Part shown: positions 50,709 to 59,937 of the stretch, piece by piece
How positions within the stretch are numbered: the stretch's first letter is position 1
Layout of the letters: each line of letters begins with the position of its first letter
Source of the DNA: Prevotella sp.
Lineage (GTDB): Bacteria; Bacteroidota; Bacteroidia; Bacteroidales; Bacteroidaceae
Length of the DNA: 64,000 nt
Reading direction: 5' to 3'
Assembly: GCA_017471245.1 (NCBI GenBank)
Contig: JAFUVB010000060.1
Coordinates: forward strand, 1-64,000
Translations under genes and position numbers: made by a program
Notes under the pieces: generated by a model
What the model saw: only the letters and a program-made list of their open reading frames with translations
The model's database searches: none
What the model was told of the DNA's origin: nothing

Positions 50709-53006
50709 ATGAAGAAGCCAATTCCTAAACAACGAATCGCAGTGGGCAGAATGGTTCTGCTGCTGTTGTGTGTGCTTTCATGGTCAGTGGCAGTGGCACA
50801 GAATGCCGGTGGCAAGCTGATCACCTACAAGTGTAGCAACGAGAAATTGCAGAAAGCCTTGGTCGCCGTGGAGCGGCAGTCGGGCTATTACCGCATCCAG
50901 TATGCCATCGACGATGTGGCTCCCTACACCGTGACGGTGAACGTGAAAAACCAGACCGCAGAGGAAACCGTGAAGCAGCTGCTGCGCAACACCTCGCTCC
51001 ACTACGAGATGAACGGCCGTTTCATCCAAGTGTTTGCCAGCAAGCAGAAGTTGAGCGGCCGCATGCGTACCATCAAGGGCGTGGTTCGCGACAGCGACGG
51101 AGAGCTCTTGATGGGTGTGCCTGTCTGCATTGGTGAAACGCGCGTATGCACCGTTACCGATGCCGACGGTTTCTACACCTTCAAGATTCCCGTGGAGGCA
51201 ACCACCCTGAAGTTCTCGTATGTGGGAATGAAGACTGCCTACATCACCATTGCGCAAGGAAACGGCGACGTGACGCGCGATATCGTGATGAAATCCGACG
51301 TGGTGCTCGATGAGGTGCTTGTTACTGGTTATCAGCAGATAGAGAAAGGACGGGCCACTGGCTCGTTTGAAGTTGTCAAACCGGAGCAGTTGAAGAGCAT
51401 TGTGTCAACAGATGTAGTGGACAATCTTGAAGGAATCGTACCCGGACTTGCCGTCGACGGAGATGGCAATCTTATGGTTCGCGGGCAGGCAACCATCTAC
51501 GCAGAGACCAAGCCGCTCATCGTGGTTGACGGTTTCCCCATGGAGTATGGCACTTTCAATGTGAACCCGCAAGACATTGAGAGCATCTCAGTGTTGAAAG
51601 ATGCCGCTGCTGCATCCATTTGGGGTGTCAGGGCTGCCAATGGTGTGCTTGTCATTACTACTAAAAAAGGCAAGATGAACCATAAGACAGAAGTATCCTA
51701 TAATGGTAGTTTGAAGATTGGTTCACGTTTTGATGTTGGCTCAATGAACCTCATGGGGGCTGCCGATCAGATTGCTTGGGAGCGTGAGCATATCGTCAAC
51801 AATGCGAGTTTTATTGAACGAAGAGAGAGTTACGGCTCCTATTACAGTGAGGCTACAGATATTGAACGACTCTATGAGTCAGGGCAGATTTCTGACAGTG
51901 AGCGTGATTCCCGCTTTGCTGCATTAGCCTCTTATGACAATGCGAAAGATATAGAGAAAGAGTTCTACCGTCCGTCATTACTGCAGATACATAATATTAC
52001 CGTATCTGGAGGTGGTGCCAATATATCCAATTACCTGTCATTTAATTTTGAGAACAATCTTGCAACACTAAAAGGCAATGAACTTAATCGTGCCGGTGTT
52101 CAGTGGAATGGCATTGTCAATCTTTGGAAGAATATTAAAATGACAACCGGAGTACGTGGTAACTACAGTTCACAAGACAATTATTCTTTCTCTCCAAAGA
52201 AGATCATGCCATATGTTCACCTGAAAGACGCCCAAGGAAACTATGTCAATGAGTATCGTGGTGTAGCTCAGAGTTGGAAAGATCGATTGGAGGGGGAGGG
52301 ATATGTAGACTGGAGTTATAATCGCCTAAGAGACCGTGATCTGGTTTCAGATAATGTGAAGCACTATAATGTACAGACCAATCTGCAGTTCGATTTTACA
52401 CTCCCCTTCGGTTTTGTGTTTACAACAAGTGGAATGTTTGCTATCGACCATAGTGGTGAAGAGGTTCTTAGCGATCGCCTTTCTTACACTGTGCGTAATC
52501 AGTTTAATGAGTTTACGGCAAACCAAAATGGAGTGCTTACCCACTATATGCCTGAGGGAGCAACACTGAACAAGATTGATATTAACTCTACCAGTTATAC
52601 ATGGCGTAATGTGCTCAACTGGAATTATGAGAAGGACGACTGGTATGCAACAGCACTGGCTGGATGTGAGATGTTTGCCATCCATACTAAAATGAACAAC
52701 GACACTTTCTACGGCTTTGATCCACAGGCAATGACTTATGCCAATAGTGCAATGAATTTTGAGCAATTAAGACTGGGTGTGATGGGTTATAATCCTACAA
52801 GTACTTCATCACTCTTTTACAATCCTGTGTTAAGTGATTCTGAGGATCGCTATTTCTCTACATTCTTCACAGGGAGCACAACGTATAAAGATCGCTATAT
52901 AATCCGCAAAACGAAATGTTTTCGCATTTTCAAACGAAACGCAACTTTCCCAAAAACGAAACGTCCTTTGAATTTCCTGTTTGAATATCGTTTAAACATT
53001 AACTAA
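50709..53006 (+). pseudogene. susC gene truncated by prophage insertion
   Basis: The ATG at 50709 starts a normal SusC: signal peptide (ending VAVAQ), STN domain (about 28-105), CarboxypepD_reg-like domain (about 118-200), plug (about 205-330) and the first part of the barrel. The match to SusC stops after TTYKDRYI near 52900; other SusC proteins continue at this point with roughly 300-400 more barrel residues. Here the frame enters phage-end DNA, adds about 35 unrelated residues and stops at 53006. The barrel is therefore incomplete and the protein should not work. The missing 3' part is expected on the other side of the prophage, beyond the window. Confidence 0.9.
52907..52963. repeat. Phage-end repeats, probable transposase binding sites
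   Basis: The word AAACGAAA(T/C)G appears three times, with AACGAAA at 52910, 52933 and 52955, i.e. 23 and 22 bp apart. This is the spacing of two helical turns and the arrangement expected of MuA-type sites at a transposon end. Confidence 0.65.
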
Positions 53007-54468: not shown

Positions 54469-54870
54469 CTAAGAGAGCCAGCGGTCCACGTAGCCGATGG
54501 CGGCTGTGCGTACACTGTTAAAGTCAGTCCACTCCTGGTTATACTCAGCTTTCTTGGCCGTGTCTGTGACCTCCTTTCCGAGCACTTGCAGGCGATGGGT
54601 CTTGATGGCATCTTCCTCCGTCTGGCTGTACTGGCTGCGGATTATGCCATTGGCCAGACTGTCACGGTCTGCCTCTGTAGCCTCAATCAGCGTGCCGCCG
54701 TCGGCCATCGGTCCCTGGTAGGCATAGCCGGTTGTCGGTTCTGGCTGTTGCTGGCCGTCCATCACTTCCGGCACATAGTCCGGGATGACCTCCTCGTTCA
54801 GATAGGCAATAAAGTGCTTATCGTCGTACTTCTCAAATGTTCTGCGCTCTGTGTAGATTACTCTGTTCAT
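54469..54870 (-). CDS. Phage protein of unknown function, next to RT; possible tail-fibre accessory
   Basis: A 133-aa protein starting MNRVIYTERRTFEKYDDKHF. The middle (TTGYAYQGPMADGGTLIEATEADRD) and the helical end (EYNQEWTDFNSVRTAAIGYVDRWLS) recall small fibre-associated proteins of Bacteroides phages. It starts 3 nt after the RT stop, so it is co-transcribed with RT. It is acidic and does not look like the basic four-helix Avd accessory protein of classical DGRs, so Avd is not seen here. Function unknown. Confidence 0.7.
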   Translation of the reverse strand: MNRVIYTERRTFEKYDDKHFIAYLNEEVIPDYVPEVMDGQQQPEPTTGYAYQGPMADGGTLIEATEADRDSLANGIIRSQYSQTEEDAIKTHRLQVLGKEVTDTAKKAEYNQEWTDFNSVRTAAIGYVDRWLS

Positions 54871-54873
54871 TGT

Positions 54874-56523
54874 TCAAGTGAATTTCAGGAATTTCTTTCC
54901 TTGTTTGTTGGTGTATTCCGTTATTACCGTAGGACAGGGCAAATCCTCCTTTGTGAAGTCATTGCCCGCCTGATCGAGCAGTACCGAGCTACCGGAATAT
55001 GAGTACCATTCTGCATCCCTGCCTGTCGGCTGGCCAGTCTTCTTGTCAATCTCCGGCTCAAACTCGTAGGTCTCAACTTCCTCGCCTTCGTCATTGACGG
55101 CTGCCGTCGTCTTGACGATCCGCTTGTAACGGATGGCAAGTCGTTTCTTCGGGCGTGTCTGCTGTTCCGTTTTTGTTCCGCCGTTACCGTCTGGAACTTG
55201 CACTAACACTGTTTCCTTCTCGATGGTGCTGTCATCCTCGATGAAGTCCACCAGCAGAATCTTGTAGGGCGTTTCATCCTGCCCGTCCTTGCATACGATC
55301 TCAGAAAACGTGCGTTTCTGGTCGTAGCGCATCCCCTTGAAGGGAATGTTCACTTTACGGTTCTTAATGACCGTTCCAAGTCTTTTCTCCATATTAATAT
55401 CTAATTTACGTAAAAGGTTGTTCGTGTCAGCATGTGAGGCAAAACCTATCCGGCTTGCACACCTGAGGCGTGTTTCCTCCGGACTGAGCCCCTTTTTCTT
55501 GCACTTGGCCACCTCGCGGCAGAGGGCCTTCTTGTTGCGTTTCCTGAGCCTGATATGGTCGTGAAAGAACACATATCCGCAAACGTCGATGCCACCGGCA
55601 TCCACCGGCCTGACGTTCCAGTTCTTGTTGACGTCGATGTAGTAGTCACGGGCCAGCACCATAATCTGCATTTCCGTCACCAGATGAAGAAACACCTTGT
55701 CACCGTGCTCCGTCACCATATTGTCGGCAAAGCGCTGATAGCGGTTGTTCAGGCCCTCGGCCACAAACCCGTCGAATTTCCTGTTTAGATACTCCACCCC
55801 CTTGGCCAGTTCCGCCGCCTGCGCCTCAGTCCTGCACGTCAGGAAACAGTCTGTCACGTAGCGGCTGCGCCAGTAGGCCATTTTCTCAGGATCCTTGGCT
55901 ATGTCGAATATCCTTATGACATCATGGTCAAACTTTGCCAGAAAGAAATTCGCCAGGATCTGTGAGAGTTTCACGCCAAGGGGCAGCCCCAGATAGTAAC
56001 TGTCAATAAACTCATCGAGGAAAGCCAGCAGTTTCGGGTCCTTAATCTTTGTCCGGATCCGTTCCTTCATCAGGCTGTGGAGGATATGCTGGAAATAGTG
56101 GTGCGCATCCAACTGGACGAAATAGTATGTGCCCAGATAGTCACGTTCAAGGTCGGCCTTAAGTAGTTTCATAAAGTCGTGGGTGCCACGCCCCTTTACG
56201 CAGGAGCAACTGCGCCGTATATATGTGCCGCACAAAAGCGGCTCGACGTGTTGACAGGCAGCCCATTGAATAACATGGTCGTCAATGGGCACTTTGCTGA
56301 TAGTCCTGGTCTTGTGCTCGTGGATTACGTCATCCCTGTATTCTGAGGTTCTCCATGTACCCGAAATATAGGCATCGAGAAGCCTGTCAAGGTTGGCTTC
56401 AAGGTCGGCCTCAAATTTGCGGACGGCTGCACGCCTGTGCTTACCGTCCGCAAACCCATCGAAGGCCTTTTCAAAATTCAGCCTCGTTTCGATGAGGGGG
56501 GAAATAAAGCCTCTTCGTTTCAT
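54874..56523 (-). CDS. DGR reverse transcriptase with C-terminal extension
   Basis: A 549-aa reverse transcriptase of the DGR class. Seen: finger region with RTISKVPIDDHVIQWA, catalytic Asp139 in VQLDAHHYF, the DGR-type SQ motif PLGVKLSQ (181-188), the active-site box FADN (265-268; most RTs have YxDD), GIDVCGYVFF (about 311-320) and the thumb RLRCASRIGFASHADTNNLL (353-370). Residues about 412-549 are an extra acidic/beta-rich domain absent from usual DGR RTs of 350-400 aa. The gene starts 158 nt after the TR on the same strand. It copies the TR RNA with errors at adenines and the cDNA replaces the VR in the fibre gene. The Asp-to-Asn change at the second box residue is notable. Confidence 0.93.
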   Translation of the reverse strand: MKRRGFISPLIETRLNFEKAFDGFADGKHRRAAVRKFEADLEANLDRLLDAYISGTWRTSEYRDDVIHEHKTRTISKVPIDDHVIQWAACQHVEPLLCGTYIRRSCSCVKGRGTHDFMKLLKADLERDYLGTYYFVQLDAHHYFQHILHSLMKERIRTKIKDPKLLAFLDEFIDSYYLGLPLGVKLSQILANFFLAKFDHDVIRIFDIAKDPEKMAYWRSRYVTDCFLTCRTEAQAAELAKGVEYLNRKFDGFVAEGLNNRYQRFADNMVTEHGDKVFLHLVTEMQIMVLARDYYIDVNKNWNVRPVDAGGIDVCGYVFFHDHIRLRKRNKKALCREVAKCKKKGLSPEETRLRCASRIGFASHADTNNLLRKLDINMEKRLGTVIKNRKVNIPFKGMRYDQKRTFSEIVCKDGQDETPYKILLVDFIEDDSTIEKETVLVQVPDGNGGTKTEQQTRPKKRLAIRYKRIVKTTAAVNDEGEEVETYEFEPEIDKKTGQPTGRDAEWYSYSGSSVLLDQAGNDFTKEDLPCPTVITEYTNKQGKKFLKFT

Positions 56524-56680
56524 TTCGGTGTCTAATCGGTGTCATTGCAGTGTCTTGGATTCTGCTTTTTTTGTTTGGCCTCAGAAATTTCGGCTTGGCT
56601 TCCGCCAATCTACTATAACTTCCACCAGAGTTTATTTTCCGCCGTGGGGCGAGGTCCCGCGCCTCATAACCATTGTAAAA

Positions 56681-56804
56681 GTTGAGAGGCGACCCGATGT
56701 TCGCATTGGAGTTCGAGACGGCATTGTTCACGTTGACATCAGCAGACCCCGCATTGGCCCCGTTGTTCGCATTACAACCACGAAGCACCAGCCGGAAGCC
56801 AGAA
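56681..56804 (-). repeat. DGR template repeat (TR)
   Basis: 124 bp that match 57046-57169 except at 12 positions. On the coding (minus) strand every difference is an A in this copy. It is rich in AAC/AAT codons, the classical DGR template design, and lies between the fibre gene and RT, in the same direction. A spurious frame (56471-56842) reads through it. It stays constant and supplies the RNA template. Confidence 0.96.
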
Positions 56805-56839
56805 CACCGAATCAGAGGCACGGCCACTTTTTCAGGCTG

Positions 56840-56847
56840 CAAAGGTA
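56840..56847 (-). promoter_or_regulatory. Putative promoter box for the TR-RT transcript
   Basis: TACCTTTG on the minus strand. The transcript would start near 56834, 30 nt before the TR, so the template RNA and RT have their own promoter. The -33 element is poor. Confidence 0.6.
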
Positions 56848-56901
56848 CTCAATTTATCCCGATTATCAGATAAAATATGGAAAAAAGTCAAAGATCGCCA
56901 T

Positions 56902-56922
56902 ATAAAAAACCGCTTCGCGGTT
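56902..56922 (-). terminator. Rho-independent terminator after the fibre gene
   Basis: On the minus strand AACCGC, loop GAA, GCGGTT followed by TTTTTAT. It would stop transcription from the fibre gene before the TR promoter, separating the two units. Confidence 0.7.
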
Positions 56923-56994
56923 GTTGATGGGGGTGGCCTGACGGCCACGGGTTCTTTTGTTTCCCACGAACACCTTAGGCCACCTATGCCCACA

Positions 56995-58473
56995 TTAGGC
57001 CGCTTGTGCATACACTGGTTCCACCGGCCACTCCTCTTCTGCTTCGCAGAGAGGCGACCCGATGTACGCATAGGAGTACGAGACGGCATTGAGCACGTAG
57101 ACAACAGCAGACCCCGCATAGGCCCCGTTGCTCGCATGACAACCACGAAGCACCAGCCGGAAGCCAGAAGTAGCTCCAGAAATATTCCAGAAATAGTCAC
57201 AGTGATAGGTCGAGGCGCTGCCGCCTGTCTCTGTCGGCCAGATTTCCAGGTTATCATAGCTCAGCACCTTTATATAGCTGCTGCCTTGTGTCGGACTTGT
57301 CGAATAAGCCACCATCCCCGTCTCCACTCCGATGGTCCAGGTGCCATAGATGGAAGGTGCCACAAGATGCGTTATGCTGGTGTCCTCGTTGACCTTGCCA
57401 AATTCATCGTCCTGATGCCGCCAGAGATAGGCAAAGGCATTCTTAAGGCCAAAGAAAACCGGAACGGGTGCCGTGTAGATGGTCGCACCGTCTTCGCCCT
57501 TTACCTCGTAGTTCACCACGCCGCAACTGTCACCCAGTTCCACGCCTACACTTGTCGGAAGGAACGGGTTGTACCCATTATGATTATTCCATGCCGTACC
57601 ATTCCAAGTTGACACACCATTGCCAAGGCCACCTTGATAGAGTCCGTCGCTGTCACGGGCCGCATTGAACGCGTCCTGAATGTTACGCGTGCCGAAGATG
57701 ACCTCAAAGAGGATCTTCACGGCCGCATTATGGCGCATCGTTCCGCAGAGCCACCCCGTGCCGTTCTTGCGGGCCGCCTTGCGCATATTCTCGCAGGTCA
57801 TTCCCGTTACGGCCATGCCCAGCTCTGACCTGTAGGTGCCGTCACGGTCAGAATGGTTCTGACCGCCCCGGTAGTTCGGATCATCGTTGATGTAGCTGAC
57901 CAAAGTCTGAGTGTCACGCTCCAGGCTTGCAAAGCCATGAGCCGACAATGAGCCAACCGGAATGACATAGTTGTACTGGCCGGGAATAGGGGTCAGGCTT
58001 ATGGCCTCGTGGAAAAGGCCGCCTGCCAGCCAGAAGGCAACATACCATTTGACACCCCATCCCCATTGATAGTGCCCCATCGACCCGTCCAGCTTGGCGG
58101 TCTCGCCATTGGCAAAGCGGTAATGATTCGTCGGGTCAAGTTTCCGGCGACTGTGGTCATTCTTAACCAGGTAGCAGCCCAGTTTAAGTATGTCCGGCAA
58201 GTTCTGCCCCATTGACAGGCTGCCGCCCCACGTTGCCGCCTTCGGTGTGCTCACCGCCGTGTTCCAAACGCGCTCAAAATAGGGGGCGCTTGCCATTGTC
58301 ACGGCCTCGCGGAGTGGCATCCGCTCACTCTCACCCGTCCTGGAGTTGAACACCTCGATGCTCTTGTCCTGGACATCATTGCTGCCCAGGGGCAGGTCGT
58401 CCACCTGCTCCCCAGTGTCAAACGCGGTCATAATCGCCCGCAGTTTGGTTTCTTCTGCATCTGTAAATGCCAT
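56995..58473 (-). CDS. DGR target protein: tail-fibre with C-type-lectin-like variable end
   Basis: A 492-aa phage fibre protein. The N-terminus (about 1-75) contains a short attachment/coiled region; the middle and C-terminus (WGWGVKWYVAFWLAGG, YNGTAWNNHNGYNPF-like blocks, SGFRLVLRGC) have the pattern of DGR-type C-type-lectin variable proteins. Residues 435-476 are encoded by the VR. Ten residues differ from the template: His446, Ser448, Tyr452, Val457, Tyr459, Leu461, Tyr466, Tyr468, Tyr470 and Cys476, where the template gives Asn (Asp at 457). Two template Asn codons are unchanged. Likely receptor-binding tip, varied to follow changing host surfaces. Confidence 0.92.
   Translation of the reverse strand: MAFTDAEETKLRAIMTAFDTGEQVDDLPLGSNDVQDKSIEVFNSRTGESERMPLREAVTMASAPYFERVWNTAVSTPKAATWGGSLSMGQNLPDILKLGCYLVKNDHSRRKLDPTNHYRFANGETAKLDGSMGHYQWGWGVKWYVAFWLAGGLFHEAISLTPIPGQYNYVIPVGSLSAHGFASLERDTQTLVSYINDDPNYRGGQNHSDRDGTYRSELGMAVTGMTCENMRKAARKNGTGWLCGTMRHNAAVKILFEVIFGTRNIQDAFNAARDSDGLYQGGLGNGVSTWNGTAWNNHNGYNPFLPTSVGVELGDSCGVVNYEVKGEDGATIYTAPVPVFFGLKNAFAYLWRHQDDEFGKVNEDTSITHLVAPSIYGTWTIGVETGMVAYSTSPTQGSSYIKVLSYDNLEIWPTETGGSASTYHCDYFWNISGATSGFRLVLRGCHASNGAYAGSAVVYVLNAVSYSYAYIGSPLCEAEEEWPVEPVYAQAA
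57034..57053 (-). other. Hairpin at the 3' end of the VR
   Basis: On the coding strand CTCTCTGC, loop GAA, GCAGAAGAG (57053-57034): 8 bp with one bulged A. It is absent from the TR. A short GC-rich hairpin just after the VR is required for efficient retrohoming in the BPP-1 phage DGR, so this is a probable homing element. Confidence 0.6.
57046..57169 (-). repeat. DGR variable repeat (VR)
   Basis: 124 bp at the 3' end of the fibre gene, equal to the TR except at 12 sites. On the coding strand the changes are template A to T (8), to C (2) and to G (2). No other base of the template differs in the repeat. Confidence 0.96.
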
Positions 58474-58491: not shown

Positions 58492-59937
58492 TTATACAAT
58501 TCTTATCTTCCCCTTGTTCAGGCGCATCTTCCCGGAACTCGTCAGACGGATGCGCGGGCCTCTTACGTTCACGCTCACCTGCTGCCATAATTCCGTGTTC
58601 TGGGGCGGGATGACCCAAAAGACACTCTCACCCGTTCCCGTCACTATGATGCCCCCTGACGGGTCAACCATTGCCGACGTGCCTGAGACTTTCTGATAAA
58701 GCACGTTCTGCATCACATAGGTAGGATATAACTGCACACTGATGCGCTGCTTCTCCTTGTTCTTCGTGCTGATGGTGCCAAGTACGCCCACGGCCATCTT
58801 CACGGGTGCCGCTGAGCTCTCACCGCTGATGCTCCTGACAAGCGCATCAATCTCCACCATTTTCTCTCCCGCGTTCTGGGCGGCTGTCTGGGCGGCACCG
58901 GTGGCGTCAAGGCAGTCGCTTTTCAACTTGCCCAGGTTCTGCGCTTCGGCATTGGCGGCTGATGCCGCAAGTGCGGCCTTCTCTGCCTGGGAACTGGCTG
59001 CTGTCGCCGCATTGTTGGCAGCGGAGGTGGCCGCCTGGCTGTCGGTCTTCAGGCGGGCAAACTCAGCCACACGGGCATCCTCGGCAGACTCACGGCCGGA
59101 CTCGGCAGACACGCGTCCCTTTTCTGCTGAAATGCGGGCATCCTCATTGCCTTGTCGGGTGGTTTCCTGATTCTGGCGGGTGGTCTCGTTGCCCTTGCGA
59201 GTGGTTTCGTTGCCTTGCCTGGTCGTTTCCTGACTTTGGCGGGTGGTCTCATTGGTCTGGCGGGTGGTCTCGTTACTTTTCCGTGTGGACTCGTTGGTCT
59301 GCCGTGTGGACTCCTGGCTTTGGCGCGTGGACTCCGCTGTTTGTCTGTCGGTTTCTGCCTCCTGGGCGGCAGCCAGCCAAGTGTCGTATGCGGCCTTGAC
59401 TCCATTGTACCATTCCGGCCATTCCGCTTTCCGGGCATTAAACCAGGTGGTCCAGTCGCCTTTCGTGGCTTCAAACCAAGTCGTCCAGGCGGGGCTCACG
59501 CTCTCATACCAGGCCTTGACGGTCTGGTATATGGAGTTTGCCAGGTCAGCCTTTCCATTGGCGTTCTGAGCGGCCTCCACGGCTGCCGTCTTGGCTGCCG
59601 TTATGTCCAGCACGGCGGCTGTCACCTGGGCAGCCTTGTCGCTGGCATTCTGGGCGGCTGCATTTGCCTTGCCCGCAGCCGTGTTGGCGGCATCAGCGGC
59701 ATCGTTCGCCCGCTGCTCGGCCTCTGCGACATTGGCGGTCATCATATTCAGAGGAACACGCACAACCTTCACCACACCCCCAATTTCCTGGAGGCATTGC
59801 ATCGAGGAAATCCCCAGCAATGATGTTGCCAGCTCAATCCCCTCTACCGTGGAGCTGTGCTGCTTCACGTAGTCGAGGAACGCCGGCAATACCATTGCAA
59901 AGAACGCCTCATTTTCTGCTTGTGTCGTCTGATACAT
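58492..59937 (-). CDS. Phage fibre-shaft protein with tandem heptad repeats
   Basis: A 481-aa protein, probably a fibre or baseplate component. Residues about 75-150 are an Ala-rich helix, about 197-265 a run of 7-residue repeats of the form E(S/T)TRQxN coded by 21-bp DNA repeats, and about 265-340 more Ala-rich helix, together a long coiled-coil shaft. The C-terminus (from about 370) is beta-rich (KEKQRISVQLYPTYVMQNVL; VSVNVRGPRIRLTSSGKMRL). It lies 18 nt upstream of the fibre target gene in the same operon. It could connect the tail to the receptor-binding fibre. Confidence 0.8.
   Translation of the reverse strand: MYQTTQAENEAFFAMVLPAFLDYVKQHSSTVEGIELATSLLGISSMQCLQEIGGVVKVVRVPLNMMTANVAEAEQRANDAADAANTAAGKANAAAQNASDKAAQVTAAVLDITAAKTAAVEAAQNANGKADLANSIYQTVKAWYESVSPAWTTWFEATKGDWTTWFNARKAEWPEWYNGVKAAYDTWLAAAQEAETDRQTAESTRQSQESTRQTNESTRKSNETTRQTNETTRQSQETTRQGNETTRKGNETTRQNQETTRQGNEDARISAEKGRVSAESGRESAEDARVAEFARLKTDSQAATSAANNAATAASSQAEKAALAASAANAEAQNLGKLKSDCLDATGAAQTAAQNAGEKMVEIDALVRSISGESSAAPVKMAVGVLGTISTKNKEKQRISVQLYPTYVMQNVLYQKVSGTSAMVDPSGGIIVTGTGESVFWVIPPQNTELWQQVSVNVRGPRIRLTSSGKMRLNKGKIRIV

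Follow-up and report, generated by a model that had tools for sequence, protein, structure and literature searches.

The question raised by this locus is whether a diversity-generating retroelement (DGR) can be driven by a reverse transcriptase (RT) that lacks the second Asp of motif C, a residue commonly regarded as indispensable in reverse transcriptases. The element lies in a stretch of 64,000 nt of Prevotella sp. DNA (positions 1 to 64,000 of contig JAFUVB010000060.1, assembly GCA_017471245.1; the whole stretch is called the window below), and the parts of the cassette located in the following are on its minus strand. The DGR is genuine and in itself ordinary; what is unusual is its Asp-Asn (xDN) active site, for which evidence of activity was found in relatives, and a candidate phase switch in a sister subclade. 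It is, in our judgement, very probable that this is a phage-borne DGR whose own xDN RT, equipped with a C-terminal domain, diversifies the tip of a tail fibre.

An earlier note, made from the letters of the window, had described two 124-bp copies (56681-56804 and 57046-57169, 365 bp apart) with 12 differences, each at a template adenine on the minus, i.e. coding, strand. These observations were reproduced, including the spectrum (A to T 8, A to C 2, A to G 2), the 10 changed codons of the 492-aa target and the two template Asn codons, 449 and 462, that are left unaltered. Alignment of the copies, together with the repeat ends of relatives, places the true repeat at 121 bp, with the template repeat (TR, 22 adenines) at 56684..56804 and the variable repeat (VR), which forms the last part of the target gene, at 57049..57169. 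Ten differences remain in this core, at 10 of the 22 template adenines and within 9 codons (VR positions 57138, 57131, 57120, 57104, 57099, 57093, 57092, 57078, 57072 and 57066; template to VR on the minus strand, A to T 7, A to C 2, A to G 1). Non-A differences number 0, and the chance that all 10 randomly placed differences would hit A is P = 5e-9. The last two of the 12 differences (57047 and 57048; codon 476) are a fixed difference of the flank and not a product of mutagenesis, because the VR triplet at the place of the final three bases is TGC (54) or TGT (14) in 68/68 loci, the TR triplet there being mostly another one (AAC 42, AAT 8, CAC 4, others; TGC only 3). This count took in the 68 loci with a TR/VR pair of at least 100 bp.

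The identification as a DGR, likewise made in the earlier note, held up on the A-only TR/VR pair, an RT with the LGxxxSQ motif, the position of the VR near the C-terminus of a tail protein, an end resembling the initiation of mutagenic homing (IMH) site, an inverted repeat and a structured spacer. The RT (549 aa, 54874..56523) is fused to a C-terminal domain and spells the DGR-type motif LGVKLSQ; a large part of the family has the AQ variant of (I/V/L)GxxxSQ, which is listed in PMC3521204. In the family alignment, motif C reads F265-A-D-N268 (55720..55731) in place of YxDD, and motif A reads D139-A-H-H-Y-F144 (56092..56109) with a His-His pair. Alignment of the family's profile hidden Markov model (HMM) sets the xDN motif on the YMDD of the best PDB sequence match, 8ub7 ('Reverse transcriptase'), which we take to be the BPP-1 DGR enzyme. 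A YxDD with both Asp is thus lacking; it was taken as a usual rather than a defining feature of DGRs because the element shows the characters expected at the level of the retroelement.

Across the family, motif C is FADN in 40 and FVDN in 40 of the 80 readable loci (82 including the window; two not covered), and the phage record MT835875 has FMDN. All 47 readable relatives from scans whose patterns omitted motif C carried xDN; one further scan used motif C as its pattern and is biased for xDN. A pattern-free protein search of genomes returned 11 loci, all with both DN and HH. The 11 canonical phage DGR RTs used for comparison all have xxDD and a motif A of the form D-x-x-K/R-F/Y, and none has HH (4 of 15 fetched references had been dropped, three because of stops and one as itself an xDN RT). 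A phrog_1423 search of the host's order, which takes in all RT kinds, gave 30 loci with YADD, YVDD or YMDD in 28 and no recognisable motif C in two, further loose-pattern matches in these loci being read as outside motif C. In the tree a branch with support 100/99 separates the xDN rows from the rest; long branches were flagged.

A TR/VR pair was found beside the RT in 73/82 loci (window included), and 883 of the 891 differences in these pairs fall at template A. The script behind this count discarded pairs with less than 70% A bias or fewer than three differences, and for the 9 other loci no pair was listed; the first 19 relatives, listed without this filter, gave the same result, and other repeats there had mixed spectra. 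VRs were then compared in 20 locus pairs, 18 picked by hand from the pair list and two involving the window. Five of the 20 are at most 0.06% divergent elsewhere, and within each of these the TR is unchanged. Between L059 and L067, which have different metagenome ids, 0/13,288 positions differ elsewhere and 0/121 in the TR, and the VR differs at 15/23 A and at 0/98 other sites. Similarly, L003/L010 differ at 0/6,024 positions elsewhere and in the VR at 11/23 A and 0/96 others, and L036/L071 at 4/7,052 elsewhere and in the VR at 11/15 A and 0/63 others. A fourth pair (L063/L081; 0/13,132 elsewhere) has a VR difference at 1/26 A, and the fifth (L036/L058) shows no difference anywhere, VR included. 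Adenine-confined VR variation beside a fixed TR, the pattern for which the earlier note had proposed to look, is thus present in near-identical relatives, most clearly in L059/L067. For the window itself the nearest RTs are those of L008 (91% identical, on a viral contig) and L021 (90%, in a Prevotella metagenome-assembled genome); at about 18% divergence elsewhere, the VR differs from theirs at 15/22 and 14/23 A sites and at 6/99 and 4/98 other sites, respectively.

On the preferred reading, TR RNA folded with the spacer would be copied by the RT to cDNA with random bases opposite template adenines, and this cDNA would overwrite the VR in the 3'-terminal part of the tail-fibre gene, with the inverted repeat and the IMH-like end as guides; progeny would then bear differing fibre tips. 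The enzymes would form an RT clade of Bacteroidales phages and prophages marked by an Asp-Asn motif C, a His-His motif A and a C-terminal domain of their own. In such a scheme the window RT itself presumably performs the synthesis, the His residues of motif A may help to compensate for the lost Asp, and the C-terminal domain may handle RNA or cDNA in place of Avd. We think that the xDN centre is functional and that the clade polymerises with it, because the Asn is clade-wide, birnaviruses have ADN and relatives show activity in nature.

Several observations weigh against this reading. One alternative is that the DGR is real but its xDN RT dead or specialised, with a canonical YxDD enzyme of the host or of a phage supplying the mutagenic copying in trans. 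Asn here replaces one of the two motif C Asp residues that the DiGReF survey of 2012 (PMC3521204) gives as 100% conserved among DGR RTs; the BPP-1 RT is inactive once its YMDD is changed to SMAA (PMC12875486); and D185N/D186N abolishes the activity of HIV-1 RT, with residual activity described in a drug-resistant variant (PMC5498913). The window RT scores 29.2 against Pfam RVT_1, just below the cut-off of 29.6, only the RT part being matched in a Pfam scan of the whole protein. Furthermore, the finding of D-x-H-H-Y/F-F in 47/47 of the xDN tree rows that cover motif A is biased, because the scan patterns for relatives included motif A; the 11/11 loci with HH from the pattern-free search are free of this bias. 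A search of the own genome with phrog_1423 (E 1e-15) listed this RT alone, which argues against a helper enzyme; this search scored 2/5 candidates and so leaves room for a second RT acting in trans. Copying in trans is also hard to reconcile with an Asn that runs throughout a deep clade, with an RT under constraint in the FVDN subclade (ratio of nonsynonymous to synonymous substitution rates, dN/dS, median 0.057, range 0.024-0.155, 50 pairs) and with cassettes that pair their own TR with their own RT. That birnavirus RNA-dependent RNA polymerases (RdRps) carry ADN in motif C (PMC3121795) speaks against the premise that such a centre must be dead; neither GDN nor ADN was found in PMC5850383. 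On balance, we consider a canonical RT working in trans quite unlikely.

The other alternative is a fossil, i.e. an inactive DGR in the window whose VR differences are old. Some relatives look broken, L028 and L069 by frameshifts and L039, L049, L052 and L095 by stops. No near-identical copy of this prophage was found: its nearest RTs share 90-91% identity, and the DNA around them diverges by about 18%; for this reason its present activity is something that we infer. The proposal of the earlier note that the fibre tip is or has been diversified is supported by the A-only variation, with fixed TR, of near-identical relatives, diversification at present being an extrapolation from them to this prophage. 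Conversely, the RT reading frame is intact, non-A differences between TR and VR are absent, and relatives that are otherwise identical differ in the VR, and a fossil is in our view very unlikely.

The domain at the C-terminus of the RT spans about residues 400-549 (54877..55326) and ends in ...FLKFT, and a domain of about 150 aa with a KFT end is found in 83/83 non-redundant loci. Taken alone, it matched no NCBIfam family. The best PDB sequence match (E 0.3) and a PADLOC match to GajA (E 0.0035) were both taken as chance, and the many PADLOC RT matches indicate only RT identity. A relationship to the RT tails of Hankyphage or crAss phages, suggested by ends that look similar by eye, was not borne out by hhalign (probability 0.2% each, with only two sequences on the opposing side each time).

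The window RT has no poly-G tract and is fused to this domain, whereas many genes of the FVDN subclade carry a G7-G16 run at the RT/domain junction. Among the 83 non-redundant loci, the frame is kept in 46/46 without a tract, and the 37 with a tract are spread over frames 0/+1/+2 as 10/18/9; four of these came from scans that required a G run, and the remaining 33 are spread as 8/16/9. L028 and L069 (FADN), in which the frameshift lies inside the RT, were left out of the frame count, and the stops of L039, L049, L052 and L095 were flagged upstream of the checkpoint (L049 being partly covered). In out-of-frame copies the domain is open to its end in 27/27, and comparison of out-of-frame pairs gives it a median dN/dS of 0.052 (range 0 to 0.126; 52/56 pairs computable). 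A stop codon directly 3' of the tract in the RT frame was seen in 16/39 listed tract rows, duplicates included. The tract also varies between close relatives: L036 and L058 have G9 and are in frame and L071 has G8 and is out of frame, at 99.8% identity otherwise, and L040/L060 (G13/G9) and L070/L076 (G7/G8) are pairs of about 97% identity each. One genome, G076, holds both kinds of DGR, one with an FADN RT that lacks the tract and one with an FVDN RT in which it is G8 (L085, L094), and L128 has two poly-G runs, G16 (3965) and G14 (4018), close together at the junction.

Of the explanations for this frame pattern, a single programmed frameshift at the tract was rejected because all three frames occur. 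Slipped-strand phase variation fits best, which makes the tract of the FVDN subclade a candidate phase switch, with slippage during expression as its rival. The latter would have transcriptional slippage or ribosomal frameshifting always yield both products, the genomic frame hardly mattering; purifying selection on domains that are out of frame is what such a process predicts, but with frames at 10/18/9 of 37 no single direction of frameshifting accounts for all three. We hold it to be possible, if rather doubtful. Many of the records are metagenome assemblies, and the analysis was made from assembled records, so that homopolymer errors of sequencing or assembly in genes whose protein is always fused have to be considered as well. 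Such errors are an unlikely explanation: the frame is lost in 27/37 loci with a tract and in none of the 46 without, a stop often follows the tract directly in the RT frame, copies with the same flanks vary between records (L036 and L058 against L071), and the two loci frameshifted elsewhere are not part of the count. Returning to phase variation, it is conceivable, though we would not yet favour it, that a clade with a remodelled metal site (D-x-His-His, Asp-Asn) includes a sister subclade in which slippage of the poly-G tract switches the product between bare RT and RT with domain and so randomly tunes the hypermutation of the fibre.

Poly-G runs were also seen outside RT genes. Runs of G9-G12 with flanks like AANTGTTAAY..TAAAC occur in L110 (4136 and 5036), L112 (reverse strand, 9474 and 10398) and L116 (5479), all of them other phage contigs, where they precede or follow tail-fibre-like genes; at an apparently shared site the run is G12 in L110 and G10 in L112. 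A widespread mobile element was considered as one possible source of such flanks. The second pattern gave 21 matches, 15 of them without RT. In L137 the run is G9; the other 14, with no more than G6 or G7, are put down to chance.

Read along the minus strand, the cassette consists of the target gene with the VR, the A-free end with the inverted repeat, the TR, a spacer of about 160 nt, the RT, a 133-aa open reading frame (ORF), a small helix-turn-helix gene and thymidylate synthase. The target (56995..58473) encodes the 492-aa tail protein (phrog_5302, E 2e-63) and has the VR near its C-terminus. The IMH-like end of the VR is an A-free 14-bp segment (TCGGGTCGCCTCTC, 57049..57062) that is the same at the TR end (56684-56697). 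Directly behind the VR, sequence comparison and folding locate the inverted repeat at 57033..57054. In 3/5 folded relatives it forms a perfect stem of 8 bp closed by a 4-nt loop (z -4.1 to -5.0), and in the two others z is -1.88 and -0.23. With -6.7 kcal/mol and z -1.96, the window's hairpin falls short of those three.

Within the spacer, the segment AAAGCAGA (56561..56568) complements the TR end and its flank (56678-56685) and is a candidate cDNA priming region. When the window is aligned with 15 relatives (16 sequences), this pairing has two compensated pairs, seen in four sequences from a single sub-lineage, and a short stem-loop between TR and RT (56639..56652) has one. Over 11 pairs, 99.4% of the cells are paired; shuffles reach 91.1% and slid versions 37-53%. 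The covariation score is higher than in 500/500 shuffles; the three doubly changed pairs are not exceptional, being reached by 258/500 shuffles. A third predicted stem (7 of 18 pairs, several broken) was excluded from the 11-pair count. In BPP-1, the spacer RNA primes cDNA synthesis (PMC12875486). The window's spacer seems to resemble that priming RNA, and the AAAGCAGA region may serve as the priming site here.

The 133-aa ORF directly behind the RT (54469..54870) has likenesses behind the RT of relatives. An ORF of 127-138 aa directly 3' of the RT is common to the window, L084, L085, L142 and L128 and is a candidate DGR accessory gene; that of the window matched no family of Pfam, PHROGs or NCBIfam. 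An Avd match was absent from the 133-aa and 91-aa neighbours and from the RT, the other small prophage ORFs not having been scanned for Avd. Avd is not universal among DGRs. On the other side of the cassette, a 481-aa fibre-like protein (58492-59937) adjoins the target, matches phage tail and unknown families and has an internal repeat near 59207-59334.

The cassette appears to be part of a Mu-like prophage. The contig extends past the window, and downstream it encodes a Mu-type portal (Portal_Mu, E 1.3e-70) and an AAA ATPase; a 671-aa transposase candidate had no Pfam transposase match, and a scored search for 5-bp target duplications gave no clear prophage ends. A GCTA repeat, picked by eye, stands at contig positions 52894 and 90100 and bounds about 37 kb. 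Judged from the translations on both sides rather than from a family match, the insertion reads like one that split a SusC-type receptor gene. A match to the RT at E 1e-40 was obtained in 11/299 genomes of the host's genus, the own genome included. A Phocaeicola massiliensis record of 106,882 bp has a full-length RT (65% identical, FADN), and its TR/VR differences are 9/9 at A.

A combination of DGR and xDN spelling was not found in a literature search from which many subscription papers were absent. The listed titles and abstracts on DGRs with phase variation, poly-G frameshifts or poly-G in Bacteroides phages likewise contained no phase-variable RT. If the reading given here is true, a natural active clade without the second Asp makes the catalytic role of this residue, and any tie to adenine-specific infidelity, testable, and searches for DGRs or RTs by motif may overlook xDN elements. 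A phase switch on the hypermutation enzyme, if true, would unite slipped-strand phase variation and DGR mutagenesis within one gene.

Among known systems, the BPP-1 DGR shares the A-only TR/VR pair, the IMH, the stem-loop behind the VR and the TR-RT spacer RNA (PMC12875486), and the RTs are homologous by sequence through PDB 8ub7. However, the BPP-1 RT has YMDD, DFSKF and 328 aa, whereas the window RT has FADN, HH in motif A and 549 aa with the C-terminal domain, and no Avd was found here among the scanned neighbours. The DGR of the Bacteroides Hankyphage p00 (BK010646) is similar in its order of target, TR, RT, small ORFs and ThyA, in having no annotated Avd in the stretch shown and in its A-only TR/VR differences (9/9); the ThyA DNA of Hankyphage-type records is about 78% identical to the window's. 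Its RT, in contrast, is canonical (YCDD/DITKF), 27% identical to the window RT over 68%, with a C-terminal part not recognisably related. An unusual motif in a DGR RT is also known from crAssE-Sib (PMC11054128), where motif 4 is altered (GxxxSP) and YxDD kept; here, conversely, motif C is altered and LGxxxSQ (or AQ) kept. The birnavirus RdRp (PMC3121795), although an RNA virus polymerase with re-ordered motifs and part of an unrelated system, shares with the window RT an Asn at the last position of motif C in a natural polymerase.
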